Notes: generated from the sequence alone by a model not told the origin. A stretch of DNA of 22,269 nt from a virus (IMGVR_UViG_3300010413_000188:1-22269), one strand, 5' to 3'; positions 141-22,269 are shown, counted from the stretch's first letter. Numbers and translations are program-made.

Positions 141-966
141 TTTGAAAGCTAGAATCGTCTAATGGGCTTAATCGTCACGGCAACTTGACAAAAAAACGTG
201 GCAAAAACCTGGCAGCGTTTGCAACGCAAACCGCCGTATAAACGGCATGGCTGTAAGGCTAGAGTATCAATTTCCAGCTGCCAGCTTTGGAGAATGTCGA
301 TTCCCTATCCACAACCTAAATATGTAAAATGCTGTAAAGTGTTAGGCTAGCCTTTTACTAAATAATGTAAATCTGATCCAGGATTTAGGCCTGACAGGTA
401 AACATTTTAAAATTGAGTTTTGAAATTACCGTTGATTTAAGGAAAATTGGAAATTGGATTAGAGAATCATGTCGAAAAGCTCGCGGCAAAACATATATTG
501 GAAGTCGAAACGACACGAAAAGGGTGTAAATCCATTATGGTAAAAAAAGGATGGCAGGCACTAACATTATATGGTAAAAAAACGTGTTGTTAAATCCTGG
601 TACTTACTAAGTTTATTAAAAATGTCAGTTTTGCAGGCTGCACACACGGCAGCAGCGGCAGCGGTTCCGAGGTTTTAGCATGTTCTTAGCTTCCTCAGCC
701 TAAAATATGGTAAATCCAGGTTTTTACATGGTGGATTATGGCACTTCCATATAATCAAGATATTACAAATATATTCCATGTATTAACATATCTCAGTAAA
801 TTTTAGGAGATTTAGAAATCATGATTTTGAGACCTATTTTAAAAATCAAGGTTAAAATCTGGCAGTTTTTACGTCAAGCCCTCTAGTCGTGGCGTTTTGT
901 CCTGCCAGGCAAGTATTAAAAACCTGGCAGAAACCTGGCGGCCCTGATAAATACGTGGTTTTACCC

Positions 967-1024
967 AAGGAAGCTAAGAGCTTAAAAAATGGGCAAAACC
1001 TCTTTTAATTTTCTTAGCTTCCTT
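967..1024. repeat. Perfect 13-bp inverted repeat made of two GGAAGCTAAGA sites
   Basis: AAGGAAGCTAAGA (967-979) is followed 32 bases later by its exact complement TCTTAGCTTCCTT (1012-1024). Each arm is a copy of the short word scattered over the window, here paired so that a cruciform or RNA hairpin could form. No long T-run follows on the + strand, so it is a poor terminator. Confidence 0.75.
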
Positions 1025-1235
1025 AAAACACGTCTCTATCCCTTGGCAGCAGCGGGCTACAGGCCACGACGGCAGCATGGATTTTTACATGCTTGTAGGC
1101 CTTGATATCAGCGGGGTGTAATTTTTTCGCTTGTTTGTAGACCATGGATTTTAGCGTGGCAATGAATTAAAGGAAGCTAAGAAATAAAAAGGCTGTAAAC
1201 AAGCCATATAATTCTTAACTTTTTTTGATTTTAGC

Positions 1236-1264
1236 TTGACAGTTTCAAGGTAAAATTATATAAT
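1236..1264 (+). promoter_or_regulatory. Early-type promoter for the 1339 operon
   Basis: TTGACA (1236-1241), a 17-base spacer, then TATAAT (1259-1264), a perfect sigma-A consensus. The context AGCTTGACAGTT recurs at the 2610 promoter. The complement TGTCAA lies at 1271-1276, near the expected transcription start, forming a dyad with the -35 box that could be an operator. Confidence 0.88.
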
Positions 1265-1299
1265 AAGAATTGTCAACAAGACATACTAAAATATATGGA

Positions 1300-1332
1300 G
1301 GGCGCAGCAGCCCACTAAAAAAACTAGGAGGG
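1300..1332 (+). promoter_or_regulatory. Leader hairpin plus ribosome site, copy 1
   Basis: GGGC(GCAGCA)GCCC at 1300-1313 is followed by an A-rich stretch and the ribosome site CTAGGAGGG (SD 1326-1332) ahead of the ATG at 1339. The same layout with a longer stem recurs at 1823-1856. The stem bases differ in length while pairing is kept, which supports a real RNA structure. Confidence 0.6.
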
Positions 1333-1338
1333 TAAAAC

Positions 1339-1659
1339 ATGAGTGGATTTACACAGGATACTATAGATTCGTGTAACACATGCTTTAATTGTGGTAAGAT
1401 TTACGCGACTGAGAAAGACTACTATTTTAGCGAACTAGATGTATCAATTGATTTTGAAGGCGGGCAGCTTGAAATATGCGACGATTGCGTACGCACAATC
1501 ATAGGAGAAAAGACTCGTCTTAGAAAGGCAGACCCAAGGAAGCTAAGAGACGGGATTAATAAGATGGTGGAAAACAAAATTAAGATGCTTGAATCCTTGG
1601 GGTATGCTACTAAGCTATGGTATAACGGCACGTATAAAGACTTAGAAAGAAGGGATTAA
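1339..1659 (+). CDS. Small zinc-ribbon-like protein, unknown function
   Basis: This 106-residue protein is the first gene after the promoter at 1236. It has a C12-x2-C15-x2-CG (C15/C18) knuckle and a second C47-x2-C50 knuckle, the usual four-cysteine zinc-binding layout, followed by a basic, charged C-terminal half (about 55-106). No family is recognised. The ATG is set by AGGAGGG six bases upstream and a structured leader. Phage early proteins of this kind often bind host nucleic acid or RNA polymerase, but nothing here shows which. A GGAAGCTAAGA site lies inside the gene (1538-1548), where it is read as R-K-L-R rather than the K-E-A-K seen elsewhere. The next gene begins 5 bases later, so they are probably co-transcribed. 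Confidence 0.85.
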   Translation: MSGFTQDTIDSCNTCFNCGKIYATEKDYYFSELDVSIDFEGGQLEICDDCVRTIIGEKTRLRKADPRKLRDGINKMVENKIKMLESLGYATKLWYNGTYKDLERRD

Positions 1660-1663
1660 GAGC

Positions 1664-1816
1664 ATGAAATTATTTAACCTTATATTTAGCACCAAGTTAG
1701 TGCCACAAGTAGCCAATACAAGCACATACTGCCATAAATGCTTTAGTGATGACATTGTTTGGCGTGAATCAGTTAATAAATATTTTTGCCGTGCTTGTGG
1801 GCATTTACAAGATTAA
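1664..1816 (+). CDS. 50-residue zinc-ribbon protein
   Basis: A short gene with AGAAGGG about ten bases before its ATG, starting just after the preceding stop. The product has a C23-x2-C26 pair and a C42-x2-CG (C42/C45) pair about 16 residues apart, a classic zinc-ribbon spacing, preceded by a short hydrophobic N-terminus (MKLFNLIFSTKL). Small ribbons of this type are common among phage accessory proteins; no specific role can be given. It is the second gene of the unit from the 1236 promoter and may share regulation with its zinc-binding neighbour. Confidence 0.72.
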   Translation: MKLFNLIFSTKLVPQVANTSTYCHKCFSDDIVWRESVNKYFCRACGHLQD

Positions 1817-1822
1817 AAAACA

Positions 1823-1856
1823 GGGGGCAGCAGCCCCCCATAAAAAACTAGGAGGG
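1823..1856 (+). promoter_or_regulatory. Leader hairpin plus ribosome site, copy 2
   Basis: GGGGGC(AGCA)GCCCCC at 1823-1838 is a perfect six-pair stem with a four-base loop. It is followed by AAAAAACTAGGAGGG (SD 1850-1856) before the ATG at 1864. It repeats the leader at 1300-1332 almost exactly, so it is a duplicated post-transcriptional control element or a spacer that keeps the ribosome site open. Confidence 0.62.
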
Positions 1857-1863
1857 TAACAAG

Positions 1864-2208
1864 ATGGATAAAAACATAAAAGAAAGATTTGAAGGGCTAG
1901 AAATAGATATATTATTAGATTCAATGGAGATATTATTAGATAAAAAACCAGATTTAAAGCCTAAAATATTAGGCGTGTGTATGTCAAACATGCTATTGCT
2001 TAAAAGCGGCCCAGGTTTTAGCAGGATAAAACATCATATAATTAGTGAAATGGGCAATGATATAAAGCTTGCTTTAGTTGCGTTCTTAGCTTCCTTAGAT
2101 GTTAAGCGTAGCAAAGAAGCCACATACAGTGATTTAATGCACGCTTGTATGGTAGAAAGCAGTAGGCTATATAACGGGGTATCAAACACCACTAACAGGG
2201 AGGTATAA
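1864..2208 (+). CDS. Tandem paralog A, unknown small protein
   Basis: A 114-residue, largely helical protein. It resembles the next gene along most of its length: both have an N-terminal helix around DILLDSMEIL / NILCDMLDFL, a central SxxGND or SISND region, and a C-terminal block, YSDLMHACMVES here and YKDLIHACIVTQ in the partner. The two look like a tandem duplication that has diverged. No known family is recognised. The start has AGGAGGG seven bases upstream within the duplicated hairpin leader. A TCTTAGCTTCC site at 2084-2094 encodes part of FLASL. No catalytic motif, signal peptide or membrane span is seen, so a protein-binding role is more likely than enzymatic activity, but this is inference. 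Confidence 0.82.
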   Translation: MDKNIKERFEGLEIDILLDSMEILLDKKPDLKPKILGVCMSNMLLLKSGPGFSRIKHHIISEMGNDIKLALVAFLASLDVKRSKEATYSDLMHACMVESSRLYNGVSNTTNREV

Positions 2209-2212
2209 AAGC

Positions 2213-2563
2213 ATGGTTAAAAGAACATTAGACAAGCAAGTACATGACATATTGAATAATGCGGAGTTAAATATACTTTGTGACATGTTGGACTTTTTAA
2301 AGGAAGCTAAGAAAGACCAGGCAAAACAGATAAAAGACCTTGAAAATAAAATGGTCAAAAAAATGCTAGAATATGATAGCACACCAAATATTATAAAACT
2401 CATAACTGGTAGTATAAGCAATGATTTACTTATTAAAGGTTTAAAGCTATATCTATGCTCTTTATCGTATGATTGCAGCCAGGTAAACAGCAGCTACAAA
2501 GATTTAATACATGCTTGTATTGTTACACAAAACCTTAAACGCCAAGGTCACCAAATAGGCTGA
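2213..2563 (+). CDS. Tandem paralog B, unknown small protein
   Basis: A 116-residue helical protein, paralogous to the gene just upstream (shared C-terminal SxYxDLxHACxV). Its N-terminal half is more charged, with a likely short coiled coil around residues 26-50 (KEAKKDQAKQIKDLENKMVKK). The start lies 4 bases after the preceding stop, with GGGAGG about ten bases before the ATG. A GGAAGCTAAGA site (2302-2312) sits in the coiled-coil segment. It is the last gene of the unit; a strong terminator follows within a few bases. The function is unknown; a heteromeric partnership with its paralog is a reasonable guess. Confidence 0.82.
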   Translation: MVKRTLDKQVHDILNNAELNILCDMLDFLKEAKKDQAKQIKDLENKMVKKMLEYDSTPNIIKLITGSISNDLLIKGLKLYLCSLSYDCSQVNSSYKDLIHACIVTQNLKRQGHQIG

Positions 2564-2566
2564 AAG

Positions 2567-2596
2567 AAAAACCAGGATTAAAACCCTGGTTTTTTT
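2567..2596 (+). terminator. Rho-independent terminator
   Basis: AAAAACCAGG (2567-2576) pairs with CCTGGTTTTT (2585-2594) and is followed by further Ts. It closes the first early unit just ahead of the 2610 promoter. The stem reuses the CCTGG word common in the gene-free regions. Confidence 0.9.
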
Positions 2597-2609
2597 CTTT
2601 GTGAATAGC

Positions 2610-2661
2610 TTGACAGTTACGCGGTAATATTATAAAATAGGGGTATCAAATCAAAGGAGGT
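2610..2661 (+). promoter_or_regulatory. Early-type promoter with AATCAAAGGAGG leader
   Basis: TTGACA (2610-2615), 17 bases, then TAAAAT (2633-2638). The short leader carries AATCAAAGGAGGT (2649-2661). The promoter closely matches the one at 16044 (TTGACAGTTAyrCGGTA), and the leader matches those at 16044 and 17116. The 13 leader bases are exactly complementary to the loop of the small RNA at 15962-16035. Confidence 0.87.
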
Positions 2662-2666
2662 CAATT

Positions 2667-2975
2667 ATGACTATAGAGCAAGTGTTCGACGAGGCAAAAC
2701 TATGTATTATAGAAGATGCTATGGAAGCTAAGGGCATGCACGGGGTTTTAACTAACTTATGGTACCATGTCCAAAGTCTAGACGATGATACTAAGCGCCT
2801 GCCATTTGTTAGACAATTTATGGGGGATATAGTGCTAATAGATATATTAGGTTCTAAGCTTCCTAATTATGATGTACAAGCAGCATTAAAAACCATGGGA
2901 ACTGATAAAGTTTGTACAAGCATGTTAAATTTACTGGTTGTACAGTATGCCAGGGAGGTGTTAGGCGTTGATTAA
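2667..2975 (+). CDS. Unknown 102-residue early protein
   Basis: First gene of the second early unit, with AAAGGAGG six bases before its ATG. The protein is acidic and helical, without signal peptide, membrane span or known motif. An N-terminal stretch (CIIEDAMEAKG) faintly recalls the start of the paralog pair upstream, too weak to claim homology. Eight genes follow in a tightly packed chain of overlaps, so this promoter probably drives the unit up to the weak terminator near 5001. Its ribosome site is the best-matching target of the candidate antisense RNA near 16000. Confidence 0.8.
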   Translation: MTIEQVFDEAKLCIIEDAMEAKGMHGVLTNLWYHVQSLDDDTKRLPFVRQFMGDIVLIDILGSKLPNYDVQAALKTMGTDKVCTSMLNLLVVQYAREVLGVD

Positions 2976-3423
2976 ACCTAAGATAGTAGAAGATAAAACC
3001 CCGTATTTTACATACCATTTCCAGGACAATAAAATCACAGTTGCTGACCATGGATATAATGACTTATTTATGGCAAATTTAGGGGTTCATATCGTAAAGT
3101 ATATTCATGGCGGTAACTTTGCTTACTATTGGGCTTTAGAAGACAAGGAAGCTAAGATTAATATATTATATAAGGACATGGAGGAAATTTACGATATATA
3201 CCTTGGTACTATGCCAAAGTCCTGGCATAATAACATTGCTGAAATCAGGTCCAAGTTTAAAAAAGATTGGCTAAATAAATATTGGGAAGCAGATAACAAG
3301 TATAGAGCGCCTGATAACTGGTATAAAAATAAATTTAATCAATTATATTTTAGCCCATTTATGGCGGGAGAGTGGAATTATAATATAAAACAAAAATTAG
3401 GAAGGGAAATTAAACTATTATGA
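2968..3423 (+). CDS. Unknown 151-residue protein, TTG start
   Basis: The frame opens with TTG at 2968, overlapping the previous gene by 8 bases, with GGGAGGTG nine bases upstream; no ATG start is near, so the TTG is preferred. The product is rich in aromatic residues (many W and Y) and mixed in charge, with no known motif and no membrane span. Overlaps on both sides point to translational coupling. A GGAAGCTAAGA site (3147-3157) is read as K-E-A-K. The aromatic content would suit a nucleic-acid or protein-binding surface, but this cannot be judged from sequence alone. Confidence 0.8.
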   Translation: MIKPKIVEDKTPYFTYHFQDNKITVADHGYNDLFMANLGVHIVKYIHGGNFAYYWALEDKEAKINILYKDMEEIYDIYLGTMPKSWHNNIAEIRSKFKKDWLNKYWEADNKYRAPDNWYKNKFNQLYFSPFMAGEWNYNIKQKLGREIKLL

Positions 3424-3698
3424 AAACAAGGATAACAGAGATTAAAGAATCTTGGGATTTAAGATACATGCTTAAAAGCGGAAAACATATAGACATATCA
3501 TTGAATAGCGAGGGTTTAGAATGGGCATTCACTTTATTTTTAAACGGGCTTGATACTTTTGTGAATAACATAGCTATTTCGTATAACAGTACAGAGGTTT
3601 TATTAATTCAGAATAACAATTATACATACGAACCTTATCACACAGAAAAGAACGGTAAACAAGTTATTAAAATATATGTGGAGGAACTCAAGAAATGA
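3420..3698 (+). CDS. Unknown 92-residue protein
   Basis: Starts with an ATGA overlap on the preceding stop, so it is probably translated by re-initiation; only a weak purine-rich ribosome site precedes it. The product looks beta-rich (alternating hydrophobic residues in HIDISLNS, IAISYNSTEVLLI, QVIKIYVEEL). No family is recognised. It is followed by another 4-base overlap. Confidence 0.75.
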   Translation: MKTRITEIKESWDLRYMLKSGKHIDISLNSEGLEWAFTLFLNGLDTFVNNIAISYNSTEVLLIQNNNYTYEPYHTEKNGKQVIKIYVEELKK

Positions 3699-3946
3699 AA
3701 CTAGTTAAAGGGCACAGGCTGCCACTGCAAAACGGGTATACAATAAGCCGTAAAAGCGTGGAGGGAATCGGGTATTTTGCCCGCTTATCCCCTGATAAGA
3801 AAAAGATTGACATGTATTGGCGTGATGAATCCGAGTATTGTATTATAGTAACTATAGAGGGTAAACAAGAAATAGAAGAAGCTAAGAAGGCATTTATTAA
3901 GGAGGTCGACAAGTATGTTAAAGTCAAAAAGTACGAACATGTTTAA
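3695..3946 (+). CDS. Unknown 83-residue protein
   Basis: ATGA overlap with the preceding gene and a GGAGG about 13 bases before the ATG. The product is basic, with a probable beta-sheet core (IDMYWRDESEYCIIVTI) and a charged C-terminal helix (EIEEAKKAFIKEVDKYVKVKKY). No family is recognised. Its last 32 bases are shared with the next gene in another frame; the next gene's ribosome site AAGGAGG is inside it. Confidence 0.76.
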   Translation: MKLVKGHRLPLQNGYTISRKSVEGIGYFARLSPDKKKIDMYWRDESEYCIIVTIEGKQEIEEAKKAFIKEVDKYVKVKKYEHV

Positions 3947-4160
3947 AATGCTTGATATACTACAACACAGTGAAGAGTTATTAAGTTTGGCAGATTTGGC
4001 CAAAAAATTAGACATGAGTATAAGCGGGGCCCGTAAGCTTTTAGCCCCGCTTATAGATAAAGAATATGTTACAATGGTACCTAAAGGACGTGGGGGCGTG
4101 TTTTACAAAGCTAACCACAAGCCAGAAGAAAATCATATTTATATTAAATGGGAGGAATAA
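3915..4160 (+). CDS. Winged helix-turn-helix DNA-binding protein
   Basis: An 81-residue protein with an N-terminal winged-helix pattern: LLSLADLAKKLDMSISGARKLLAPLIDKEYV (about residues 22-52) fits helix 2, turn, recognition helix, then a beta-wing in TMVPKGRGGVFY. MarR-like and other small phage regulators share this layout. The start is fixed by AAGGAGG eight bases before ATG 3915, inside the preceding gene. It likely binds DNA, perhaps to time early transcription; the operator is unknown. Oddly, the codons for residues 36-47, the recognition helix, form a perfect 12-bp inverted repeat (4019-4055), which would make a strong mRNA hairpin and could also be a self-operator. Confidence 0.83.
   Translation: MLKSKSTNMFKMLDILQHSEELLSLADLAKKLDMSISGARKLLAPLIDKEYVTMVPKGRGGVFYKANHKPEENHIYIKWEE
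4019..4055. repeat. Perfect 12-bp inverted repeat inside the wHTH gene
   Basis: TATAAGCGGGGC (4019-4030) and GCCCCGCTTATA (4044-4055) are exact complements separated by 13 bases. The arms are GC-rich in an AT-rich gene. It may act as a DNA operator bound by the encoded regulator or as a stable mRNA hairpin. Confidence 0.85.
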
Positions 4161-4162
4161 TT

Positions 4163-4525
4163 ATGGAACTAGAGTTAACCGTGGCACATGTTAGAGATAT
4201 ATTAGTCTCTAACATTTTATTTGATAAAGTCCATTGGGTTAAAAATATGACTTTTGAATCTGTGGAGCATGCCACAGAAGTTATAAACGAGCTTAAAATC
4301 ATGTTAAAAAACAAAACTACAGATATAGAGACAGCCAATATTAAAGGCGGTAAAATCGATTCTAAGGAATATATAAAGGCTTTAAATCATTTCAACAATC
4401 AACAGGCCCAAATAAATTTTATCCTGAATAGTGAGCCAGGAACGATTTTTAAAAAAGGCCGCACGGCTGAGGGCGTGTTATGGTCGGGTCTTAAATTCTC
4501 TGAGGGGGTTGTTATTCATGGATAA
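4163..4525 (+). CDS. Unknown 120-residue protein
   Basis: The ATG at 4163 is chosen over an upstream in-frame ATG at 4148 because GGGAGGA lies directly before it; the upstream ATG would overlap the previous gene and has no ribosome site. The product is helical with two amphipathic stretches (about 20-50 and 75-95) and ends in GVVIHG, an end dictated by the ribosome site and start codon of the next gene. No known family is recognised. It sits two genes upstream of a probable anti-defence gene, so a counter-defence or host-takeover role is possible but unproven. Confidence 0.78.
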   Translation: MELELTVAHVRDILVSNILFDKVHWVKNMTFESVEHATEVINELKIMLKNKTTDIETANIKGGKIDSKEYIKALNHFNNQQAQINFILNSEPGTIFKKGRTAEGVLWSGLKFSEGVVIHG

Positions 4526-4531
4526 AGAATA
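4504..4531 (+). repeat. Gene-junction repeat, copy 1 (second copy 4763-4790)
   Basis: A 28-base exact direct repeat whose core is GGGGGTTGTTATTCATGG. Each copy holds a ribosome site, an ATG, and in another frame the last codons and stop of the preceding gene (GVVIHG then stop). The copies are 259 bases apart, so two successive gene junctions are identical. Confidence 0.9.
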
Positions 4532-4784
4532 CGATTATATTATAAAATGGGGCAGGTTAAACGGTATGAGAGAGGCACGTATAACGGGGCTTATACCCAA
4601 GTTTAAACATAAATATCAGATAAAAAATGTTACCGATACCATGGTAACCATAGCGGTTCCGACATGTAAAAGCTTGAAAGAGCTACAAACAAACTTAATA
4701 CTTGAACGTGGTATAAATCAACCAGATTATATAATTAGGAGCGGTTGGAAAAATCAATGTATGGGGGTTGTTATTCATGGATAA
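4518..4784 (+). CDS. Unknown 88-residue protein at duplicated junction
   Basis: Starts MDKEYDYIIK at ATG 4518, within the 28-base repeat, overlapping the previous stop by 8 bases, with GGGGG ten bases upstream. An alternative start at 4431 lies well inside the previous gene and has no ribosome site. The product is basic, with a likely beta-rich centre (KHKYQIKNVTDTMVTIAVPT) and ends in the same GVVIHG as its upstream neighbour. No family is recognised. The identical flanks make this gene look like a cassette bounded by repeats. Confidence 0.76.
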   Translation: MDKEYDYIIKWGRLNGMREARITGLIPKFKHKYQIKNVTDTMVTIAVPTCKSLKELQTNLILERGINQPDYIIRSGWKNQCMGVVIHG

Positions 4785-5001
4785 AGAATATTATTTAAAA
4801 AGTATGACAAATCTTAATGTATCTGAGGAAGCAGGCAAGAAGATGGACGCTGTCAGGGCGGCATATCATGGAGTAGTTGAGGTAATATTTGAAACCATGC
4901 CGAACAGCAGGGAAAGAGCCAAGACACTAACAGAATTAGAAACTTCTTTAATGTGGGCTATAAAAGCCTTAGCACTAGAAGATAATGAGGGCGGGGACTA
5001 A
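4777..5001 (+). CDS. Probable Acb2/Tad1-type cyclic-nucleotide sponge (anti-CBASS / anti-Thoeris)
   Basis: The 74-residue product ends with VRAAYHGVVEVIFETMPNSR then ERAKTLTELETSLMWAIKAL. The pattern P-[DN]-SRE-x3-TL-x-LE-x-[AS]-x-MWA (residues 42-61) is what I know as the signature of the small phage helical-hairpin family containing Acb2 and related to Tad1. Those proteins bind and sequester the cyclic nucleotide signals of CBASS and Thoeris defence. Conserved-looking residues are S44, R45, E46, L51, L54, E55, M59 and W60. The start at 4777 lies in the second 28-base junction repeat; ATG 4768 is less likely because it would precede the ribosome spacing. It closes the early unit. Assignment rests on motif memory, so the family is fairly sure but the bound nucleotide is unknown. 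Confidence 0.75.
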   Translation: MDKEYYLKSMTNLNVSEEAGKKMDAVRAAYHGVVEVIFETMPNSRERAKTLTELETSLMWAIKALALEDNEGGD

Positions 5002-5017: not shown

Positions 5018-5018
5018 G

Positions 5019-5027: not shown

Positions 5028-5056
5028 GGACCCATATTATTTAAGGAGGTAGTATT

Positions 5057-5242
5057 ATGTTAGATACTTTAAAGGCAAAATTAAAAAATCCTGCGGTTTT
5101 AACCGCGACTTTAGGCAATTTGATTTCTATAGCTGCAATTGTTGGGGTAAACGCTGCGGACCTGGACAAAGTCGAAAGAGTAGGGGCTTTATTAATTCAA
5201 ATCGCCATACAATGGGGGATTATGACCAATGCAGGTAACTAG
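5057..5242 (+). CDS. Holin-like small membrane protein
   Basis: A 61-residue protein with a charged N-terminus (MLDTLKAKLKN), a hydrophobic span at about 13-33 (AVLTATLGNLISIAAIVGVN) and a second at about 43-57 (VGALLIQIAIQWGIM). Length, two spans and the KLKNPAxLxA opening resemble small holins of Gram-positive phages (phi-LC3-like). It has a strong AAGGAGG before its ATG and its own extended -10 promoter, and overlaps the peptidase gene by 14 bases. A holin in this place would make pores that release the neighbouring enzyme to the wall. Identity is by size, topology and context, not by a decisive motif. Confidence 0.65.
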   Translation: MLDTLKAKLKNPAVLTATLGNLISIAAIVGVNAADLDKVERVGALLIQIAIQWGIMTNAGN

Positions 5243-6032
5243 TGGGACAGGATTTTTACACGATAAAGAAGATAAGAGAGATTTTAAATTAACACGTTCT
5301 AAGCTTCCTAATAGTGTAGCTTTAGATAGTGACGCGGCACTTCCCACAAAAGTGGATTTAGAATCCCGATTTACACCCGTGGAGAATCAACAAGATATAG
5401 GGTCATGCACCGCCCAAGCAGTAACAGGCGTGGCGGAATACGTGACTAATAAAGACAAAGAAACATACACGGATTTATCCAGGCTTTTTTTATACAAGGT
5501 TACGCGCAATTTAATGGGTGTAACAGGTGATACAGGGTCGTCAATCCGTGCATGTATGCACGCTTTAAGAACTTTGGGCATATGTCCAGAATATTATTAT
5601 CCATATGTTACGGAAGATTTTGACGAGGAACCGCCCGCCCTGGCGTATGCACTGGCACAGAATTTTAAAAGCATGAATTATTACAGATTAGACGACGAGG
5701 GCGACGACTTGTTACAATCTATTAAAGAGCATATAGCAAGTGCTAACCCCATTGTTTGTGGTGTTAAAGTATTCAGTGGGTACTTTAAGAGTAACGGGAA
5801 TGTTTATTATCCAGAGGGAGGCGTGGCAGATTCTAGCGGTTGGCATGCTATTATATTAATGGGGTATGACGAAGCTAAGAAAATGTTTAAATTTCGTAAT
5901 AGTTGGGGTACTGACTGGGGTAACCGTGGCTATGGTTGGATAAGTTACGATTATTTTTTATCCAGGGCAACCAGTTCAGATTTTTGGATACTCAACAAAA
6001 TTGATTATGTAGATATCAACGATATATTATAG
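5229..6032 (+). CDS. Papain-family (C1A) cysteine peptidase, putative lysis enzyme
   Basis: A 267-residue protein with all papain-family active-site features: oxyanion Q54 and catalytic C60 in VENQQDIGSCTAQA, H206 in SSGWHAIILMGYD, and N224 in FRNSWGTDWGNRGYGW. There is no signal peptide and no propeptide beyond about 45 residues. It starts inside the holin-like gene with GGGGG ten bases upstream, and a terminator follows, so the two form a unit laid out like a holin-endolysin cassette. No muramidase, amidase or wall-binding domain is seen in the window, so this peptidase may be the endolysin, cutting peptide cross-links, or may mature virion or host proteins. Catalytic assignment is sure; biological role is inferred. 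Confidence 0.88.
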   Translation: MQVTSGTGFLHDKEDKRDFKLTRSKLPNSVALDSDAALPTKVDLESRFTPVENQQDIGSCTAQAVTGVAEYVTNKDKETYTDLSRLFLYKVTRNLMGVTGDTGSSIRACMHALRTLGICPEYYYPYVTEDFDEEPPALAYALAQNFKSMNYYRLDDEGDDLLQSIKEHIASANPIVCGVKVFSGYFKSNGNVYYPEGGVADSSGWHAIILMGYDEAKKMFKFRNSWGTDWGNRGYGWISYDYFLSRATSSDFWILNKIDYVDINDIL

Positions 6033-7208: not shown

Positions 7209-7703
7209 ATGGCACTATTTACGGAAGCTGAGATTATAAGTCTTGGTTTAAGCGATTATAGCAGTATAGAACTTGACGCCATAGAGGACGATGTTTATCA
7301 AGTTACTAAAAATGATTTTGCGGTTAAAGAATGGGACATATCAGACATAACAAGCAATGTTATAACTACGGATGAAACCCATAATATAATTGTAGGTGAT
7401 TATATCAGGATATATATTGATAATACATTAGCTTATGGTGGGGTTTTTACCGTGACCGCTGTCACAGATACTACTATAACAATTAGTGAGACAATCCCAG
7501 ATATTGAAAGTAGCGGAACGGTAGTTAAAATTAAATACCCTAATGGTATTAAGGTCTTAGCTTCCAGGTATTTAAAAAATTTAGCCCAATCAAGTGGTAT
7601 AAAATCCGAGTCTATAGGGCGTTATAGTGTAACATATGATAAAGAGCAGTTTGAAAGCGATTTACAAGCAAAATACGGGAAATATTTTAGGAGGGACGAT
7701 TAA
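7209..7703 (+). CDS. Head-tail connector-like protein (HK97 gp6 type)
   Basis: A 164-residue protein whose N-terminus (FTEAEIISLGLSDYSSIELDAIEDDVYQVT) and C-terminus (GIKVLASRYLKNLAQSSGIKSE then a DKEQFESDLQAKYG tail) are helical, as in HK97-gp6 or SPP1-gp15 adaptors. Between them is an inserted beta domain (about 50-110, VGDYIRIYIDN, GGVFTVTAVTDTTITI) that I would not expect in the minimal fold. The start has AAGGAGGTGAT upstream. It overlaps the next gene by one base. Such adaptors sit under the portal; the portal itself is not in this window. A TCTTAGCTTCC site (7555-7565) encodes part of VLASRY. Confidence 0.62.
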   Translation: MALFTEAEIISLGLSDYSSIELDAIEDDVYQVTKNDFAVKEWDISDITSNVITTDETHNIIVGDYIRIYIDNTLAYGGVFTVTAVTDTTITISETIPDIESSGTVVKIKYPNGIKVLASRYLKNLAQSSGIKSESIGRYSVTYDKEQFESDLQAKYGKYFRRDD

Positions 7704-9889: not shown

Positions 9890-10158
9890 CTTTTATTTAT
9901 AGGAATTGCCCACAAGTTTTAGACTTGCCAGTATCAGAGGCCGACCGCGTAATATACGAGTGTTATATACAAATGTGGGAAGAACGATTATGGCAAAAGT
10001 TCTTAGTAGAGCAGCCAGAAGATACAACATTCGATAAATACATGGATAACAACTTGGGATTAAATAAAAAGGAAGCTAAGAAAAAACGTGTCATTAGTAA
10101 AGCAGAAGCAGAAGAGGCCGCCCGTGGTGCCGCTTTATTCTTTGGGGAAGGAGGCTAA
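9838..10158 (+). CDS. T-domain of the GT tail chaperone, made by -1 frameshift
   Basis: The -1 frame continues the G protein after residue 87 with about 106 further residues, giving a G-T fusion near 193 residues. Its middle (DRVIYECYIQMWEERLWQKF) is helical and rich in aromatic residues, typical of a T domain that binds the tape measure, and its end is basic and alanine-rich. A TTG at 9925 could be read as a separate start, but there is no ribosome site before it and the frame is open well upstream, so frameshift fusion is preferred. GGAAGCTAAGA occurs at 10071-10081 as K-E-A-K. Confidence 0.8.
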   Translation, partial: ETTNQTTIPGYNHSQELAFIYRNCPQVLDLPVSEADRVIYECYIQMWEERLWQKFLVEQPEDTTFDKYMDNNLGLNKKEAKKKRVISKAEAEEAARGAALFFGEGG

Positions 10159-16035: not shown

Positions 16036-16043
16036 TGCTTAGG

Positions 16044-16096
16044 TTGACAGTTATACGGTAGTTATGATATAATAATAGTACCAAATCAAAGGAGGG
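16044..16096 (+). promoter_or_regulatory. Early-type promoter with AATCAAAGGAGG leader
   Basis: TTGACA (16044-16049), 18 bases, TATAAT (16068-16073). The -35 flank (TTGACAGTTATACGGTA) closely matches 2610. AATCAAAGGAGGG follows, the same leader word as at 2649. Confidence 0.88.
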
Positions 16097-16103
16097 TATT
16101 AAC

Positions 16104-16349: not shown

Positions 16350-16395
16350 ACTTAATTTAAATTAGCCAGGAATCCATATATTTTTAAAATAGATT

Positions 16396-16419
16396 AAAAA
16401 GCCCGTTAAGGGCTTTTTT
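16396..16419 (+). terminator. Rho-independent terminator
   Basis: AAAAAGCCC (16396-16404) pairs with GGGCTTTTT (16410-16418) over a five-base loop with a T-run. It ends the 16104 unit. Confidence 0.92.
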
Positions 16420-16421
16420 CG

Positions 16422-16430
16422 TGTTATAAT
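16422..16430 (+). promoter_or_regulatory. Extended -10 promoter
   Basis: TGTTATAAT, preceded by CG (CGTGTTATAAT), directly after a terminator and without an evident -35 box. It matches the form at 15947 and 20857 and would begin an RNA of about 70 bases. Confidence 0.65.
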
Positions 16431-16436
16431 TATATT

Positions 16437-16509
16437 GTATCAATCCTTTATATTTAGTGTTACTATATTTGGTGTTACTTAAGACCAGGTTTAAAAGCCT
16501 GGTTTTTTG
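16437..16509 (+). ncRNA. Second small RNA candidate
   Basis: Framed by the extended -10 at 16422 and a terminator at 16481-16509. The body holds an imperfect repeat TTAGTGTTACT / TTGGTGTTACT (about 16454-16480). No coding frame longer than a few residues is present. Its targets are unknown; the loop does not show an obvious anti-Shine-Dalgarno word. Confidence 0.5.
16481..16509 (+). terminator. Rho-independent terminator
   Basis: ACCAGG (16484-16489) pairs with CCTGGT (16498-16503), extendable by A/G-T pairs, and is followed by TTTTTTG. Confidence 0.82.
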
Positions 16510-16752
16510 TATGTCTGAATATCTGACATTTTACATGTTATTCCAATGTAAAAACCTGGTAATTTTCAACCGCTACAACCCTTGATACCACACGATGTTT
16601 AATTTGCTGCCAGGTTTTTGCCAGGTTTTTAGAACACGATTGGCAGGTCAAAAACCCTACAACCCTTGGCATTACTACGTTTATTAAATTTGTCAGCATT
16701 TTACTACTGGCAGGCTCCTAGACCAGTAACCCCAGTGGTTTAAGGGGTGTCC

Positions 16753-16864
16753 TGCCACATTACCAGGTTTATTCTCCTTTTAAGAGAGTATAATAATATA
16801 TAAAAAAGGTAAAAAATAAAAATATAGTATAGTTAATAGGCCTAAAACCTGGCAATGTGGCAGG
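16753..16864. repeat. Long imperfect inverted repeat, right copy
   Basis: The reverse complement of this segment matches 28-140: a 27-base core with one mismatch (16829-16855), the AT-rich tract, and the flanking CCAGGTTT and TGCCAC words. See the left copy for details. Confidence 0.75.
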
Positions 16865-17115
16865 AGGTTATTCTATTGGGCTATATAACAGGGGTAGAGG
16901 CCTGCCAGTATCATATTAGTGACATTTTTAACAAATCTAGATTTCCCAGTGCTTTGATGTGGTTTTTGCCTGCCAATTAGGTGTTAAAAACCTGGCAAAA
17001 ACCTGGCAGCATAAAAACACAATTCTTAGCTCCGCTTTTAAAGCACGTTTCAAGCCTGGATATTATTTACATGCTATATATGTAAAAACGTGGTAATTGT
17101 CAGATATTCGGGTGG

Positions 17116-17165
17116 TTGACACTTGTCTCCCTATATGATAAGATTTAGTTAATCAAATCAAGGGA
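17116..17165 (+). promoter_or_regulatory. Early-type promoter with AATCAAGGGAGG leader
   Basis: TTGACA (17116-17121), 17 bases, TAAGAT (17139-17144) with a TG extension two bases upstream. The leader AATCAAGGGAGGT differs by one base from those at 2649 and 16084. TGTCAGATATTC just upstream is half of an inverted pair with 16517 and may be an operator. Confidence 0.85.
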
Positions 17166-17174
17166 GGTTATTTT

Positions 17175-17285
17175 ATGACTTATTGTAAGTATTGTAATAA
17201 AGAGTATAGCGACGATGAGTGCGACGTTGAAGATGGGTGGATATATTGCCCAGATTGTAAAGAACCACTACAGAGAGTTCGATAA
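17175..17285 (+). CDS. 36-residue zinc-ribbon protein
   Basis: A very short gene with a perfect ribosome site (AGGGAGG nine or so bases before ATG) directly after the promoter at 17116. The product has C4-x2-C7 and C25-x2-C28 pairs, a complete four-cysteine ribbon, with little else. Its TAA overlaps the AAGGAGG site of the next gene. Too small for an enzyme; a protein- or nucleic-acid-binding role is probable. Confidence 0.75.
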   Translation: MTYCKYCNKEYSDDECDVEDGWIYCPDCKEPLQRVR

Positions 17286-17298
17286 GGAGGTAATAGAA

Positions 17299-17826: not shown

Positions 17827-18209
17827 TGGCGGGCTATAAAATACATTTAATTGCAGGGGCAGCGGTACCAATAGCGGTATCGTACGCCTTAGATGATATA
17901 AATTGGGCCTTAACAATCGGGGTTTTATCTTCAAGTTTTGGTGCCTTGATTCCAGATATAGACGCGGATTATTCTAAGATTAGGCACATGTTGCCCAAGG
18001 TAGCCAAGTTATATGACAAGCTACCAAAGAACATGATTTTTAAACATAGGGGTATATTAACCCATAGTGTGGTAACTTTAATACCCTTAGTTTATCTTTA
18101 TTATTTATGGTCCAATTGGGTAACATTAGGCCTTTTAATGGGGGTTTTTAGTCATCATTTAGTAGATGGCTTAAGTCCTAAAGGTCTACCAAGATATTTC
18201 TTATTTTAG
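17826..18209 (+). CDS. YdjM/DUF457-family membrane metal-dependent hydrolase-like protein
   Basis: A 127-residue membrane protein with the family's sequence marks: H7 near the N-terminus, IPDIDADYSK (P43-D46), HRGILTHS (H74-S81), and HHLVDGLSPKG (H110-G120). These His/Asp residues form the proposed metal site of the YdjM/DUF457 group, inner-membrane proteins that are regulated by LexA in E. coli. Hydrophobic spans lie at about 8-22, 27-42, 80-95 and 98-113. It starts by TAATG overlap. In phages this family is found occasionally; a role in envelope alteration, superinfection exclusion or lysis timing can be suggested only from its membrane location. Confidence 0.83.
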   Translation: MAGYKIHLIAGAAVPIAVSYALDDINWALTIGVLSSSFGALIPDIDADYSKIRHMLPKVAKLYDKLPKNMIFKHRGILTHSVVTLIPLVYLYYLWSNWVTLGLLMGVFSHHLVDGLSPKGLPRYFLF

Positions 18210-18221
18210 GGGGTGTATGTA

Positions 18222-18329
18222 GTGAAGTACTGTTTTAATTGTGGTAAGTGGGTAGAACCAGAAACCGACGAACGGGGCCAAGATAGGTGCCCCGATTGTG
18301 ATACATTAGTTGGATTGAGTGCACCATAA
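18222..18329 (+). CDS. 35-residue zinc-ribbon protein, GTG start
   Basis: GTG at 18222 follows AGGGGGTG eight bases upstream; the nearby ATG at 18217 is followed at once by a stop. The product has C4-x2-CG and C23-x2-C26 pairs with the common CPDC form, so it is a bare zinc ribbon. Its stop lies in the ribosome site of the next gene. It resembles the 36-residue ribbon at 17175 in design and may bind a similar partner. Confidence 0.68.
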   Translation: MKYCFNCGKWVEPETDERGQDRCPDCDTLVGLSAP

Positions 18330-18343
18330 AGGAGGCTAAGAGA

Positions 18344-18493
18344 ATGAGCATCTTATTTATAATGTATTGTAATCTCATGGTGCTATATTTGGCACCATTG
18401 CCGAAAGTAGGTATTTTAAAAGAGGCTTACGAGTTCTATTCTAAGCCGATAAAAAGGGAAGGGGTCGTGGTAATTCATGCAAAAAGAAATTAA
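18344..18493 (+). CDS. Small 49-residue protein, hydrophobic N-terminus
   Basis: AAAGGAGG lies eight bases before the ATG, within a near-copy (GGAGGCTAAGA) of the scattered GGAAGCTAAGA word. The first 20 residues (SILFIMYCNLMVLYLAPLP) could form one membrane span; the rest is basic. The last codons encode GVVVIHA, determined by the ribosome site and start of the nuclease gene that overlaps it by 17 bases. This mirrors the GVVIHG junctions at 4504 and 4763. Possibly it serves as a coupling leader more than as a functional protein. Confidence 0.6.
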   Translation: MSILFIMYCNLMVLYLAPLPKVGILKEAYEFYSKPIKREGVVVIHAKRN

Positions 18494-18764
18494 CATAGAA
18501 CAATCATGCGTAAAATGGACCAAGGACCGTGGTGGTATGTTGATAAAACAAACAGCATTTAAGGGGTGTCCTGATAGGCTTTTAATTTGCCCAGGGGGCA
18601 ACATGGTGTTTATTGAATTTAAAGACCCTAAAGGACACGCCAGTAAGCTACAAGAGTATTATATAAAGAAGCTAAACAAAATGGGTGTAGATACTTATAT
18701 ATGCAGAAGCTTGGACGAGTTTAAAGAAATATATTTTTTAAAAGTAGGAGGGGTAAAACCATGA
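18477..18764 (+). CDS. VRR-NUC domain nuclease
   Basis: A 95-residue stand-alone VRR-NUC protein. The key residues fit the PD-(D/E)XK fold: E8 in the first helix, FKGCPDRLLI (G30, P32, D33), FIEFKDPKG (E47, K49), and a Q59 helix (SKLQEYYIKKLNKMG). Such nucleases are frequent in phages beside SNF2-type helicases and are thought to cut branched or flap DNA during replication, recombination or before packaging. The start is coupled to the previous gene with GGGGTCGTGG upstream. Its last 4 bases overlap the next gene. Confidence 0.88.
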   Translation: MQKEINIEQSCVKWTKDRGGMLIKQTAFKGCPDRLLICPGGNMVFIEFKDPKGHASKLQEYYIKKLNKMGVDTYICRSLDEFKEIYFLKVGGVKP

Positions 18765-18991
18765 TAGATAATGATGTTTTAATATGTAAACACTGTGGTA
18801 GTGTAATGTTTTATGTATCTAGGAAAAGAGTAACTAATAAAAACTGGTATCATAACGGTCTATACTGCGCGAACTGTGCGGGGTGGGCTAAGTGGGCCAA
18901 TGAAAAAACTTTACGTAAACTTAAAGTATCGGGTAATATTGTCTATGACTTAATGAGCGATAAAGACGAAGAGTACATAAAAGAATTATAG
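18761..18991 (+). CDS. 76-residue zinc-ribbon protein
   Basis: ATGA overlap with the nuclease gene, with AGGAGGGG upstream. The product contains C9-x2-CG (C9/C12) and C36-x2-C39 pairs, again a four-cysteine ribbon, followed by a basic-aromatic segment (GWAKWANEKTLRKLKV) and an acidic C-terminal helix. Located between nuclease and helicase genes, it may help bring them to DNA, but no family is recognised. Confidence 0.75.
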   Translation: MIDNDVLICKHCGSVMFYVSRKRVTNKNWYHNGLYCANCAGWAKWANEKTLRKLKVSGNIVYDLMSDKDEEYIKEL

Positions 18992-19003
18992 GAGGGTAAT
19001 AAG

Positions 19004-19180
19004 ATGGATAAAAAAGGATTGATAGCAGGTTTAAGATTTTTAAAACTAATTGGTATAATTTGTTTTTGGGTAGGTATAATTTTGATTATATATTTACATG
19101 GTTGGCGTACTGCAATATCAATATACTTAATAGTATTTGGCCAAAATACCATAAATGGGGCTAAGGGGTTGATAAAATGA
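19004..19180 (+). CDS. 58-residue two-span membrane protein
   Basis: A short gene with AGGAGGG seven or eight bases before its ATG. The product has spans at about 11-31 (RFLKLIGIICFWVGIILIIY) and 37-47 (AISIYLIVFG), a basic start and a basic end. It overlaps the helicase gene by ATGA. Its size recalls holins and antiholins but it lies in a DNA-metabolism unit, so a membrane anchor or superinfection factor is equally likely. No family is recognised. Confidence 0.68.
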   Translation: MDKKGLIAGLRFLKLIGIICFWVGIILIIYLHGWRTAISIYLIVFGQNTINGAKGLIK

Positions 19181-20520
19181 TACTAGAAAAACACCAAGTT
19201 AAAGCCCTGGAAGAATTAAAGAGTCATAAATCAATGGCTCTTTTTTATAAAATGGGTAGCGGCAAGACATTAATATTATTGGAGTATATCCGCATAGTAA
19301 GGCCTAAAACCGTGTTAGTAGTCGCGCCTAAATATGTATGTGATAGTTGGGAGGCAGAAATTAAGAAATGGAAGTATGATTTTAGCTATGGTATTTTAGC
19401 GGGCCGTGCCGCTTCACAAAGGCGTAAATTACTTAACAAAGATTCACAAGTGTATTTTATAACGCCCGATTCATTACCATGGTTATTAAAGCATAGAGAC
19501 ACATTTACATTGATTGTAGTAGATGAGGCAAGTGCATTTAAAAACACTAATACAGTACGATGGAAAACACTATCAAAATTCAAAAGAGCGCAAATGGTAC
19601 TATTAACAGGCACGCCGACACCAAACGGGTTACATGAAATTTACCCATTAATCAAACTAATTTCTAATATATGGCCAGGTAAAAGCGTGTTTTTAACTAA
19701 GTATTTTAAGCCCATTGTAATGGGTCATATAGTCGTAGGATACAGCCCGCTTGACAAGTATGTAAAAGACTTGATTTATGAAGAAGTTAAAAACCTTGCT
19801 TTAGTTCATGAGGGCGACAAATACGATACTTTAAGCCAAGAAATAATTATAAGTATGAATAAAAAAACAGAAAAACAGTACCAAGATTTAAACAATGAAT
19901 ATTTGCTTGAGTATGATGGTGGCGTGGTTCCCGCTGATAGTCAGACAAGACTACTACAATTGTGCCGCATGCTTACGAGCGGGCACGTCTATGACTATGA
20001 CGAGAACCAAGAACGCCAGGCGTATAAATTAAATACTTTAAAGCTCGATACACTTCTTAGCTTCCTTACCACTAATGAGGAAGAGAATGTTATAATCTGG
20101 TATGAGTGGCGAGCTTCCAGAGATAATATTGAGCATTTATTAAATACCCATAAAATAGCATATACGACCCGAGATGTAGGCGGTTGGAACCATGGCGATT
20201 ACCGTGTATTTTTAGCGAACCCAAGGTCATATGGCTATGGGATTAACATGCAGCAGGGCGGGCGTGTAATGGTTTGGTATGACTTGACTTTTAGTGCTGA
20301 GACTTACGAACAAGCCAACGCCAGGTTAGCCCGCCGCGGACAGAGACAGCAAGTGCTAATTTATCACATGGTAGTTAAAAACACGATTGACGAGTATGTT
20401 TTATTTAAGTTAAAAAGAAAAATATTGAATCAGGAGGAATTTTTAAACAAATGGTTGATTTCAGCAAGTACCAAGGAGCCAAAGATGTTAAATACAAACG
20501 ATTGGGAGACATTACAGTAA
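19177..20520 (+). CDS. SNF2-type DNA helicase/ATPase (superfamily 2)
   Basis: A 447-residue protein with the superfamily 2 motifs in order: Q-like start KHQVKALEEL, Walker A MGSGKT (26-31), motif Ia VLVVAPKYVCDSW, Walker B VVDEASAFKN (D116-E117, a DEAS variant of DEAH), motif III LLTGTPTPNG (T144-P147), motif V near YGYGINMQQGG, and motif VI QANARLARRGQRQ (379-391). Phage SNF2 proteins of about 450 residues typically occur next to a VRR-NUC gene, as here. It probably moves along or remodels DNA in replication or recombination. The ATG overlaps the preceding stop. A GGAAGCTAAGA copy at 20055-20065 is read in another frame as L-L-S-F-L. Confidence 0.93.
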   Translation: MILEKHQVKALEELKSHKSMALFYKMGSGKTLILLEYIRIVRPKTVLVVAPKYVCDSWEAEIKKWKYDFSYGILAGRAASQRRKLLNKDSQVYFITPDSLPWLLKHRDTFTLIVVDEASAFKNTNTVRWKTLSKFKRAQMVLLTGTPTPNGLHEIYPLIKLISNIWPGKSVFLTKYFKPIVMGHIVVGYSPLDKYVKDLIYEEVKNLALVHEGDKYDTLSQEIIISMNKKTEKQYQDLNNEYLLEYDGGVVPADSQTRLLQLCRMLTSGHVYDYDENQERQAYKLNTLKLDTLLSFLTTNEEENVIIWYEWRASRDNIEHLLNTHKIAYTTRDVGGWNHGDYRVFLANPRSYGYGINMQQGGRVMVWYDLTFSAETYEQANARLARRGQRQQVLIYHMVVKNTIDEYVLFKLKRKILNQEEFLNKWLISASTKEPKMLNTNDWETLQ

Positions 20521-20660
20521 TAAAAGCCTTATTTGATGGGTTTATTACTCAAGAAATACAACAAGATGGTTACGAGGATTTTATAGTAGTTGTAAGACAT
20601 AAAAACGACCCGAACATTGATAAATTTAACGCGGAATTAAAAAGGAGGGGGAAGGCATGA
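20451..20660 (+). CDS. Unknown 69-residue protein overlapping helicase end
   Basis: Starts at ATG 20451, 70 bases inside the helicase gene, with AGGAGG thirteen bases upstream. The product appears beta-rich (DITVIKALFDGFITQE, FIVVVRHKN) with a basic helical tail. The long overlap is unusual for the window, so a shorter form from an internal start cannot be excluded, but no internal ATG is well placed. Unknown function. Confidence 0.68.
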   Translation: MVDFSKYQGAKDVKYKRLGDITVIKALFDGFITQEIQQDGYEDFIVVVRHKNDPNIDKFNAELKRRGKA

Positions 20661-20839
20661 ACCTAGATTTAATTAGGATAAGAATTCTATTATTGGAACA
20701 TGGTAAAACACTAAAAGACATATTACCCTTATATCCACGGGCTAAAGGCGGCCAGGGCATATCTAGGCCATATTTTTACAAGGTTCTTAAGAAGGACCCG
20801 CGAACAGTGGAGGCCAATATAGTAGATATTTTAAAATGA
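20657..20839 (+). CDS. 60-residue putative DNA-binding protein
   Basis: ATGA overlap with the preceding gene and AAGGAGGGGG close upstream. The sequence LLEHGKTLKDILPLYPR followed by ISRPYFYKVLKKDPRTVEANI could form a helix-turn-helix: a tri-helical unit in which SRPYFYKVLKK would be the recognition helix. It sits right before the terminase promoter, so it may control that switch. The HTH call is a pattern guess. Confidence 0.62.
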   Translation: MNLDLIRIRILLLEHGKTLKDILPLYPRAKGGQGISRPYFYKVLKKDPRTVEANIVDILK

Positions 20840-20883
20840 CAAATTACCCCCCGACGTGCTACAATGAAAGCATGAAGGGGGGT
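20836..20883 (+). promoter_or_regulatory. Late-type terminase promoter inside a ribosome-site hairpin
   Basis: ATGACA (20836-20841), 18 bases, then TGCTACAAT (20857-20865, extended -10). ACCCCCC (20846-20852) and GGGGGGT (20877-20883) form a perfect seven-pair stem; the right arm is also the Shine-Dalgarno site for ATG 20890. The -10 box is in the loop. RNA from upstream carries both arms and hides the ribosome site. RNA from this promoter (start near 20872) lacks the left arm and leaves it free. Confidence 0.72.
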
Positions 20884-20889
20884 TTTATC

Positions 20890-21330
20890 ATGGCAAAAAG
20901 GAGGAAAACATTCCAAAAACTAGACTTAGAGTCTAGTTTATTAAATGGGCAAATAGCCCAGATAGTAAAATTTAAACGCTCTAAAAGGCCAGGCCTGCCA
21001 GTTATAGAGATAAACGACGAGACTAAATCCGAGCTTGTGGAATCTCTTAAACAAAGCTTAGTTATGCAAGCCCTTGGTTATCATGTAGATAATACAAATG
21101 TTACTACATACTACGACCATAAAGGGCAAAATGTTACTAATAAACTTGGTGTACATACTGAATTAACCAATGAGCGTAAATATGTACAACCCAATTATAA
21201 AGCTACATTACAACTATTAGAAACCTTGGACCCTGGATTTTTTAATTCTAGTGGAGAAGGGGCGCCCCAAATTATTGACGATTGGGGGTTGTGTATAGAT
21301 GGCGATAGCGAAACACAAGAAGATAAGTAA
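20890..21330 (+). CDS. Putative terminase small subunit
   Basis: The ATG at 20890 is chosen over in-frame ATG 20836 (part of the promoter) because GGGGGG lies seven bases before it. The 146-residue product has a basic N-terminus (AKRRKTFQKL), an acidic helical middle (EINDETKSELVESLKQSLVM) and an acidic C-terminus. It overlaps the large terminase gene by 32 bases. No standard small-terminase motif is visible; the call rests on position, size and charge layout, a DNA-binding basic head and an acidic end. It could instead be another packaging-linked protein. Confidence 0.55.
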   Translation: MAKRRKTFQKLDLESSLLNGQIAQIVKFKRSKRPGLPVIEINDETKSELVESLKQSLVMQALGYHVDNTNVTTYYDHKGQNVTNKLGVHTELTNERKYVQPNYKATLQLLETLDPGFFNSSGEGAPQIIDDWGLCIDGDSETQEDK

Positions 21331-22269
21331 TTTAATTTTACCTGCTTTTAAATCGCTATATCAAGTTAGTAAAACGTTTCAAGTTGCTAAAGGTGGCAGG
21401 GGTAGTGGTAAAAGCACGACTATAGCAATCAAGATTGTTATGTTAGTTATAAAATATCGTGTAAACGCCCTGATTGTAAGGCGTGTAGGTGCTACGCTTA
21501 GGAAGTCCGTTTATGAACAGATAAAAGAAGCAATTGCAGTAATGGGCGTTGAAACTTATTTTAAATGTACTGATAGCCGCCTGGAAATTGTGTATAAACC
21601 AACGGGCCAAGAAATCATGTTTCGTGGTGCTGATGATGCAGGAAAAATTAAATCCGTTAAGACTAGTAAATACCCCATCGGTATACTATGGATTGAAGAA
21701 CTAGCCGATTTTATGGAACCTGGCCCTATAGATGTTATTATAGACTCAGTTATCAGGGCGGAAATAGGATTTAAATATCAAGTATTTTTTTCTTACAATC
21801 CCCCAAAACGTAAAAGTAATTGGGCCAACAAACGGTATAATTCTAAAATTGCTATACCACAAGACACATTTATACACCACTCAACTAGTTTTGATAACAC
21901 ATATTTGGCGGCCGCGTTTTTTGCCAGGGCCAGGGAGTGGGAAGCTAAGAATATTAATTATTTTAAATGGAACTATTTAGGCGAGCCGTTAGGCGGCGGA
22001 CTTATCCCATTTAATAACTTAACTTTTAAGAAAATAGAACCCGATTTAATCAAGACTTTTGATAATAATATCCAAGGGCTTGACTGGGGTTTTGGCGTGG
22101 ACCCTACAGTTTTTACGAGGTCCCACTATAGTAGAAAGCAACGTAAATTATGGGTATATGGCGAAAAGTACGAGACTAAACTACATAATATACATTTAGC
22201 AAAATGGATTAAAGACATGCAATATAATGATACTAGAATCGTGGCGGATAGCGAGGATTCATTCAGGAT
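21299..22269 (+). CDS. Terminase large subunit (3' end beyond window)
   Basis: The gene runs off the window after 323 codons. Motifs of the PBSX/SPP1-type large terminase are clear: Walker A KGGRGSGKST (31-40), Walker B ILWIEELADF (E133, E134), the coupling motif SYNPP (165-169), and nuclease residues in GLDWGFGVDP (D262, D268) and IVADSED (D317). It cuts concatemeric genome DNA and drives it into the head. Start ATG 21299 lies inside the small subunit gene with GGGGG about eleven bases upstream, so translation is coupled. A GGAAGCTAAGA copy at 21940-21950 is read as W-E-A-K. The genome would continue with portal and head genes. Confidence 0.95.
   Translation, partial: MAIAKHKKISNLILPAFKSLYQVSKTFQVAKGGRGSGKSTTIAIKIVMLVIKYRVNALIVRRVGATLRKSVYEQIKEAIAVMGVETYFKCTDSRLEIVYKPTGQEIMFRGADDAGKIKSVKTSKYPIGILWIEELADFMEPGPIDVIIDSVIRAEIGFKYQVFFSYNPPKRKSNWANKRYNSKIAIPQDTFIHHSTSFDNTYLAAAFFARAREWEAKNINYFKWNYLGEPLGGGLIPFNNLTFKKIEPDLIKTFDNNIQGLDWGFGVDPTVFTRSHYSRKQRKLWVYGEKYETKLHNIHLAKWIKDMQYNDTRIVADSEDSFR

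Follow-up and report, generated by a model that had tools for sequence, protein, structure and literature searches.

What does an 11-base word, GGAAGCTAAGA, do in a phage genome fragment that carries 13 copies of it, spread over the two strands and, within genes, over several reading frames? The window analyzed here is the whole stretch of IMG/VR virus record IMGVR_UViG_3300010413_000188, 22,269 bases long with a GC content of 37.9% and a coding share of 86%. The ORFs described all lie on the + strand and have starts with Shine-Dalgarno-like sites. They encode a tape measure protein, major tail and head-tail proteins, a VRR-NUC nuclease, a DEAD-type helicase, and the terminase large subunit (TerL), whose gene runs off the right end. 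Given these tail, head-tail, and terminase genes, and TerL cut by the right end, the record is a siphophage fragment. No portal, capsid, or recognizable integrase or repressor was seen within this incomplete 22-kb fragment. Among phages and prophages, those of Bacillota are the most closely related to it, with TerL at 45–49% to Paenibacillus, Brevibacillus, Peptoniphilus, and others, and the tape measure N-terminus at 51% to a Syntrophomonadaceae phage.

We found the 13 exact copies in the 22 kb (eight on the + strand, five on the −) at precisely the positions and strands that the original prediction had given, right to the base, and the word read backwards, as a control, gave 0/0. Markov models of orders 1 to 4 predict 0.007–0.038 exact copies; about 0.01 had been estimated earlier. 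With at most one mismatch allowed, there are 20 copies, compared with a shuffle mean of 0.32 and a largest shuffle value of 2. When the letters of the word are permuted, the resulting words occur on average 0.003 times exactly, 0.3 times with one mismatch, and 5.1 times with two, whereas 13, 7, and 6 copies were observed; the one-mismatch count had been proposed as a check, and within the fragment it stands at 7 against 0.3. At three mismatches, 44 copies were observed and 48 expected. The excess is thus confined to exact and one-mismatch copies, the counts with two or three mismatches being what chance predicts, and the site is sharply bounded. Its only extension is a weak AA on the 5′ side, giving AAGGAAGCTAAGA, with A in 11 of 13 and 10 of 13 copies at the two positions.

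Four of the 13 exact copies lie in gene-free DNA, at 684–694 (−), 969–979 (+), 1012–1022 (−), and 1172–1182 (+), all within gene-free region A (1–1338); those at 969 and 1012 form a convergent pair, and both have the extended form AAGGAAGCTAAGA. The other nine fall inside ORFs, where each of the four stop-free frames occurs: 1538–1548 (+; ORF 1339–1659, frame R-K-L-R), 2084–2094 (−; ORF 1864–2208, F-L-A-S), 2302–2312 (+; ORF 2213–2563, K-E-A-K), 3147–3157 (+; ORF 2968–3423, K-E-A-K), 7555–7565 (−; head protein gene 7209–7703, V-L-A-S), 10071–10081 (+; ORF 9925–10158, K-E-A-K), 12225–12235 (+; tape measure gene, K-E-A-K), 20055–20065 (−; helicase gene, L-L-S-F-L), and 21940–21950 (+; terminase large subunit gene, W-E-A-K-N). 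The four frames named in the original prediction are therefore right, with R-K-L-R used once, (K/W)-E-A-K five times, L-A-S twice, and L-S-F once. Genes are not significantly avoided (9 of 13 copies in ORFs versus 86% coding, P 0.10).

One-mismatch copies lie at 2723–2733 (+, GGAAGCTAAGG) and 2853–2863 (−, GGAAGCTTAGA), both in ORF 2667–2975; at 3877–3887 (+, AGAAGCTAAGA) in the E-A-K frame; at 5298–5308 (−, GGAAGCTTAGA) and 5870–5880 (+, CGAAGCTAAGA, E-A-K frame) in a C1 peptidase gene; and at 7223–7233 (+, GGAAGCTGAGA) in the head protein gene. Of the near copies reported earlier, those at 2723 and 5870 are thus genuine one-mismatch matches and “about 3880” is 3877, while 2853, 5298, and 7223 had been overlooked. 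A further one, at 18331, is present but sits inside the ribosome-binding site of the ORF starting at 18344 and is probably unrelated.

It is nearly certain that the word is maintained at the DNA level and not by protein sequence. Shuffling synonymous codons in the phage genes yields a mean of 0.12 copies and a maximum of 3 in 2,000 trials, compared with the nine observed, and the tripeptide E-A-K is written GAA-GCT-AAG in eight of nine cases in the analyzed ORFs, where codon usage predicts about 5% each. The encoded word is found in 0 of 168 TerL, 16 helicase, 5 tape measure, and 4 head-protein homologs. In the helicase, the acidic or methionine residues usual in homologs (L-E-E-L, L-M-D-I) are here replaced by L-L-S-F. 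The coding copies are accordingly not demanded by conserved protein sequence, and a protein-level cause is ruled out by the synonymous shuffle together with the homolog comparison. We regard as highly improbable that a favored E-A-K codon string and chance produced the word. E-A-K is a common helix tripeptide, five of the nine intragenic exact copies and three near copies use its frame, and an unrelated AT-rich contig carries five same-strand copies; against this, four exact copies are gene-free and four more use other frames, the shuffle never exceeds 3, and 180 related loci hold a single copy, so we hold this explanation refuted.

The exact identity of the copies could also be produced by a mobile mini-element inserted 13 times. 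However, 11 bp is no multiple of 3, yet the ORFs are intact, and the flanks differ outside the word. In addition, the TerL alignment is ungapped at the copy site, from which it follows that copies came by substitution rather than insertion. Intact ORFs and the ungapped alignment rule out an inserted element, to which we assign a negligible probability. The original prediction had placed selection on DNA or RNA, not protein; the exclusion of protein stands, and the choice falls on DNA, since both orientations under same-direction genes indicate that double-stranded DNA is acted on rather than single-stranded RNA. A single-stranded RNA signal is thus an unlikely cause of the word, and no Rfam match was found; on these two grounds, we ruled out an RNA element.

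The invariant 11-mer holds about 22 bits of information, whereas 11.7 bits suffice to locate 13 sites in the phage and about 18.8 bits in the phage plus a 3-Mb host. This surplus would fit a site that must tell phage DNA from host DNA. One way to use it would be a packaging, recombination, or nuclease-protection signal, a word that a phage enzyme reads and that marks DNA as self. Bacterial genomes seldom contain the word whereas the phage has it often, and the information in the word suffices to separate phage from host DNA. We consider such a signal unlikely, given that the two copies at 20–22 kb do not stand out and that no matching enzyme was seen in the fragment; packaging sites, moreover, are normally one or few and lie near terS.

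The distribution of the copies depends on position but not on strand. Eight of the 13 exact copies lie in 684–3157 (2.47 kb), as had been noted earlier, and this clustering is real (P about 0.001 for any window of that size), whereas the 8:5 division between strands shows no bias (P 0.58); strand and position were the two tests of bias suggested at the outset. The cluster spans gene-free region A plus the operon of small genes that follows a promoter-like site at 1236–1264 (+). Most other near copies reach up to 7.5 kb, exact and one-mismatch copies are absent from 12.3 to 18.3 kb, and no exact copy occurs from 12.3 to 20 kb, with two at 20–22 kb; the mean spacing of exact copies is 1.7 kb.

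Region A has a diverged partner, gene-free region B (16350–17175), which holds a two-mismatch copy at 17024 (−). The two share an inverted AT-rich core (28–140 versus 16753–16863, 80% identical, E 9e-23; about 45–118 is the AT-rich core of A) and both carry paired CCTGGCAAAAACCTGGCA (CCTGGCA) repeats with 11-bp spacing, a second repeat for which no relative was found. Judged by sequence, A and B look like a duplicated replication origin or regulatory hub. Another dispersed motif, AAAACCTGGCA, has eight exact copies, in gene-free regions only (193–214, 919–940, 16608–16629, 16844, and 16987–17008).

This layout brings in the main rival explanation, namely that the copies are centromere or replication-organizing sites: a partition or initiator protein would load around origin-like A, its partner B, and the outlying sites, and hold or segregate an extrachromosomal phage genome. 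Consistent with this, copy density drops away from region A (eight exact copies in 0.7–3.2 kb, none in 12.3–20 kb), the paired CCTGGCA repeats that flank the AT-rich core of A and B give an origin-like layout, suggestive of an origin role, and sites lie inside genes in both orientations. The phage-plasmid N15 likewise uses several separate protein-loading centromere sites, IR1–4, on one molecule (PMC7205306). The N15 sites, however, are four inverted-repeat copies, whereas the 13 copies here are asymmetric and lack the palindrome typical of ParB/parS, and the scanned ORFs of the incomplete fragment included no ParA, ParB, or replication initiator. We therefore see this as a real but minor possibility.

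A simple operator at promoters was also considered. The site at 1236–1264 matches the sigma-70 consensus TTGACA-17-TATAAT at 12 of 12 positions and lies ahead of the small-gene operon; further promoter-like sites are at 2610–2638, about 16043–16072, and about 17116, all four being consensus matches only. None of the exact copies overlaps these four best promoter-like sites, and the nearest, at 1172–1182, ends 54 bp upstream of the predicted 1236–1264 promoter in this incomplete genome. Judged against these predicted promoters, simple operator action finds no support and was set aside. As separate observations, three promoter-like sites have a longer common context, GCTTGACAGTT (or GGTTGACAGTT), and a leader, ATCAAATCAAAGGAGG, is common to 2645–2666, 16080–16101, and 17152–17173.

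We then looked beyond the fragment. No close relative was found in the collections searched (IMG/VR, scanned with TerL, tape measure, helicase, and early genes, and the genomes of GTDB), the best match being about 51%; none of those relatives carries the repeated word, and 500–3300 has no DNA relative in phages or plasmids. The search of related phages that the original prediction had proposed found one copy of the word in 180 related loci (2.88 Mb). In a comparison of 212 loci from phages or prophages, each at least 9 kb long, the word is the strongest dispersed 11-mer. Only two others, L051 and L121, also reach at least 10 dispersed copies of a word, and these are almost all one-stranded, as promoters or protein repeats would give. 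In about 990 Bacillota genomes, a sample of species taken at random that may not include the lineage of the host, the 13-mer occurs 0–4 times each, which is chance level, and 14 genomes whose prophages are related contain the 11-mer 0–6 times each. At least 120 IMG/VR stretches contain the 14-mer, matches that we take as chance in so large a collection. Matches to the convergent pair in seven contigs all proved to be the same coding sequence and were set aside as coincidence.

These counts bear directly on a host-directed tag, such as a DNA uptake sequence or a Chi-like site, with which the host chromosome would be full. Neisseria DUS has about 2,000 copies at 1–1.5 kb spacing, with orientations equally active, nearly half in inverted repeats, and an AT-DUS extension (PMC3388099). 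The word resembles it in density (1.7 kb spacing), in its use of both strands and of genic and non-genic DNA, in exactness, in its convergent pair (969/1012), and in its extended 5′ dinucleotide (PMC3388099), and thus shares with uptake sequences both orientations, sites within and between genes, and ~1–2 kb spacing. However, DUS is chromosome-wide in its host, whereas the word was not seen so in the about 990 Bacillota genomes, with the host's lineage perhaps outside that sample; related prophages lack it, and 8 of its 13 copies crowd into 2.5 kb. Chi sites stimulate recombination and are usually strand-biased and genome-wide, and the word has no strand bias and is not host-wide in the sampled genomes. 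We consider a host-directed tag quite improbable. Among the options raised originally, a protein-binding site remains the best class, while the host-wide uptake or Chi-like tag finds no support in the ~990 genomes sampled.

The exactness, the use of both strands, and the mix of genic and non-genic sites are best accounted for by a protein that binds double-stranded DNA. Our preferred explanation, which we hold tentatively and at somewhat less than even confidence, is that the copies are recognition sites of a phage-encoded protein silencing or organizing phage DNA; protein binding, the phage origin of the binder, and its silencing role are each something that we infer. In the proposed mechanism, GGAAGCTAAGA with its weak 5′ AA (AAGGAAGCTAAGA) would be recognized by a protein that binds double-stranded DNA sequence-specifically. 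Its gene most likely belongs to this putative temperate-type Bacillota siphophage and would be either in the unsequenced part or the one for the winged helix at 3915. Many sites would be occupied at once, densely on region A and on the operon of small genes that follows the 1236 promoter and sparsely elsewhere, and the bound protein would silence and organize the genome as an orientation-independent roadblock or DNA-bridging complex, an analogue of stoperator/silencer repressors. Because the sites are in free orientation, any silencing must be orientation-independent (roadblock, bridging, or coating). The candidate binder within the fragment is an 81-amino-acid winged helix-turn-helix protein (3915–4160, +), the only recognizable small DNA-binding regulator there, matching PF09339 (HTH_IclR) at E 9e-6, with a predicted helix-helix-helix-beta-hairpin fold (pLDDT 78).

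Multi-site phage repressors exist (PMC9283540, PMC4557955, PMC9934374), and where a single phage genome carries many sites, immunity repressors with their stoperators are the precedent that has the best support (PMC9283540, PMC6550527, PMC9934374, PMC4557955). The stoperators of cluster A mycobacteriophages (L5 and TipsytheTRex; MabJ prophages) are, like the word, multiple asymmetric ~13-bp sites that occur genome-wide and cluster near the early-promoter region (PMC9283540, PMC6550527, PMC9934374). The word shares with them many copies of one short asymmetric site, and by analogy its cluster over an early-like operon matches the stoperator layout. Among stoperators, one site overlaps the early promoter and is the true operator. 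Stoperators, however, are mainly intergenic and have one orientation relative to transcription, losing function when reversed, whereas here 9 of 13 exact copies are inside ORFs and the orientation is neutral (8 + / 5 −). As intragenic position and free orientation depart from two defining stoperator features, the word may work like a stoperator, but we do not call it one. It differs further in its invariant core, its Bacillota phage, and the lack of a recognized repressor in the fragment. The cognate repressor of stoperators combines an HTH with a second DNA-binding domain; the incomplete fragment offers only the 81-amino-acid winged helix.

Repressor sites of phiC31 are inverted repeats, whereas the word is asymmetric. 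Together with those of BPs, they are known dispersed repressor sites (PMC4557955) and were compared with the word here. The SPBRE/MrpR system of SPbeta is likewise found in a Bacillota phage and has a dispersed repressor element of ~15 bp (PMC10516654), but SPBRE lies in promoter regions, whereas the strong promoter-like sites here are free of exact copies. That system has a tyrosine-recombinase-like repressor; none was seen among the ORFs scanned in this incomplete genome. The silencer reading must accommodate the absence of a recognized repressor or integrase in the fragment, the nine of 13 intragenic copies, the 8:5 orientation, and the lack of promoter overlap. None of the relatives keeps the sites, which also counts against it.

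A bolder version, possible but in our view doubtful, is that the word serves as an address tag on the DNA, specific to the phage and independent of orientation. It would be written into genes in each frame available, overriding local amino acid preference, and by it one phage protein would coat, silence, or segregate the genome and tell it from host DNA. If true, such a site system would differ from stoperators, centromeres, and uptake tags alike. Words that selection keeps inside genes, on either strand and in every open frame, are familiar chiefly from the uptake sequences and Chi of bacterial chromosomes, whereas phage repressor systems have their sites between genes and one way round; 13 near-invariant, orientation-neutral sites, nine of them intragenic, would imply different binding mechanics. 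The word is, moreover, ready-made bait for its protein.

Several side observations concern the same DNA. The small proteins of ORFs 1864–2208 and 2213–2563 are paralogs encoded in tandem (28% identity, E 1e-8), and each ORF has one exact copy of the word, at non-homologous positions. Two small ORFs in succession have a 33-base direct repeat (94%; 4504–4536 and 4763–4795) at their starts. The papain-family (C1) cysteine peptidase gene in this phage (5229–6032) adjoins a small membrane protein that, by eye, appears holin-like (5057–5242). Also by eye, several tiny proteins look like CxxC zinc ribbons (17176–17286, 18222–18332, 18761–18991, 1339–1659, and about 1664–1816), the smallest being tentative frames. 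Finally, in an unrelated AT-rich viral contig (L127, 5266–5385), a 32-bp perfect palindrome, AAAGGAAGCTAAGAACGTTCTTAGCTTCCTTT, occurs twice with the same 11-mer in each arm; its four copies, being one palindrome repeated twice, are a different thing and were rejected as a comparable case.
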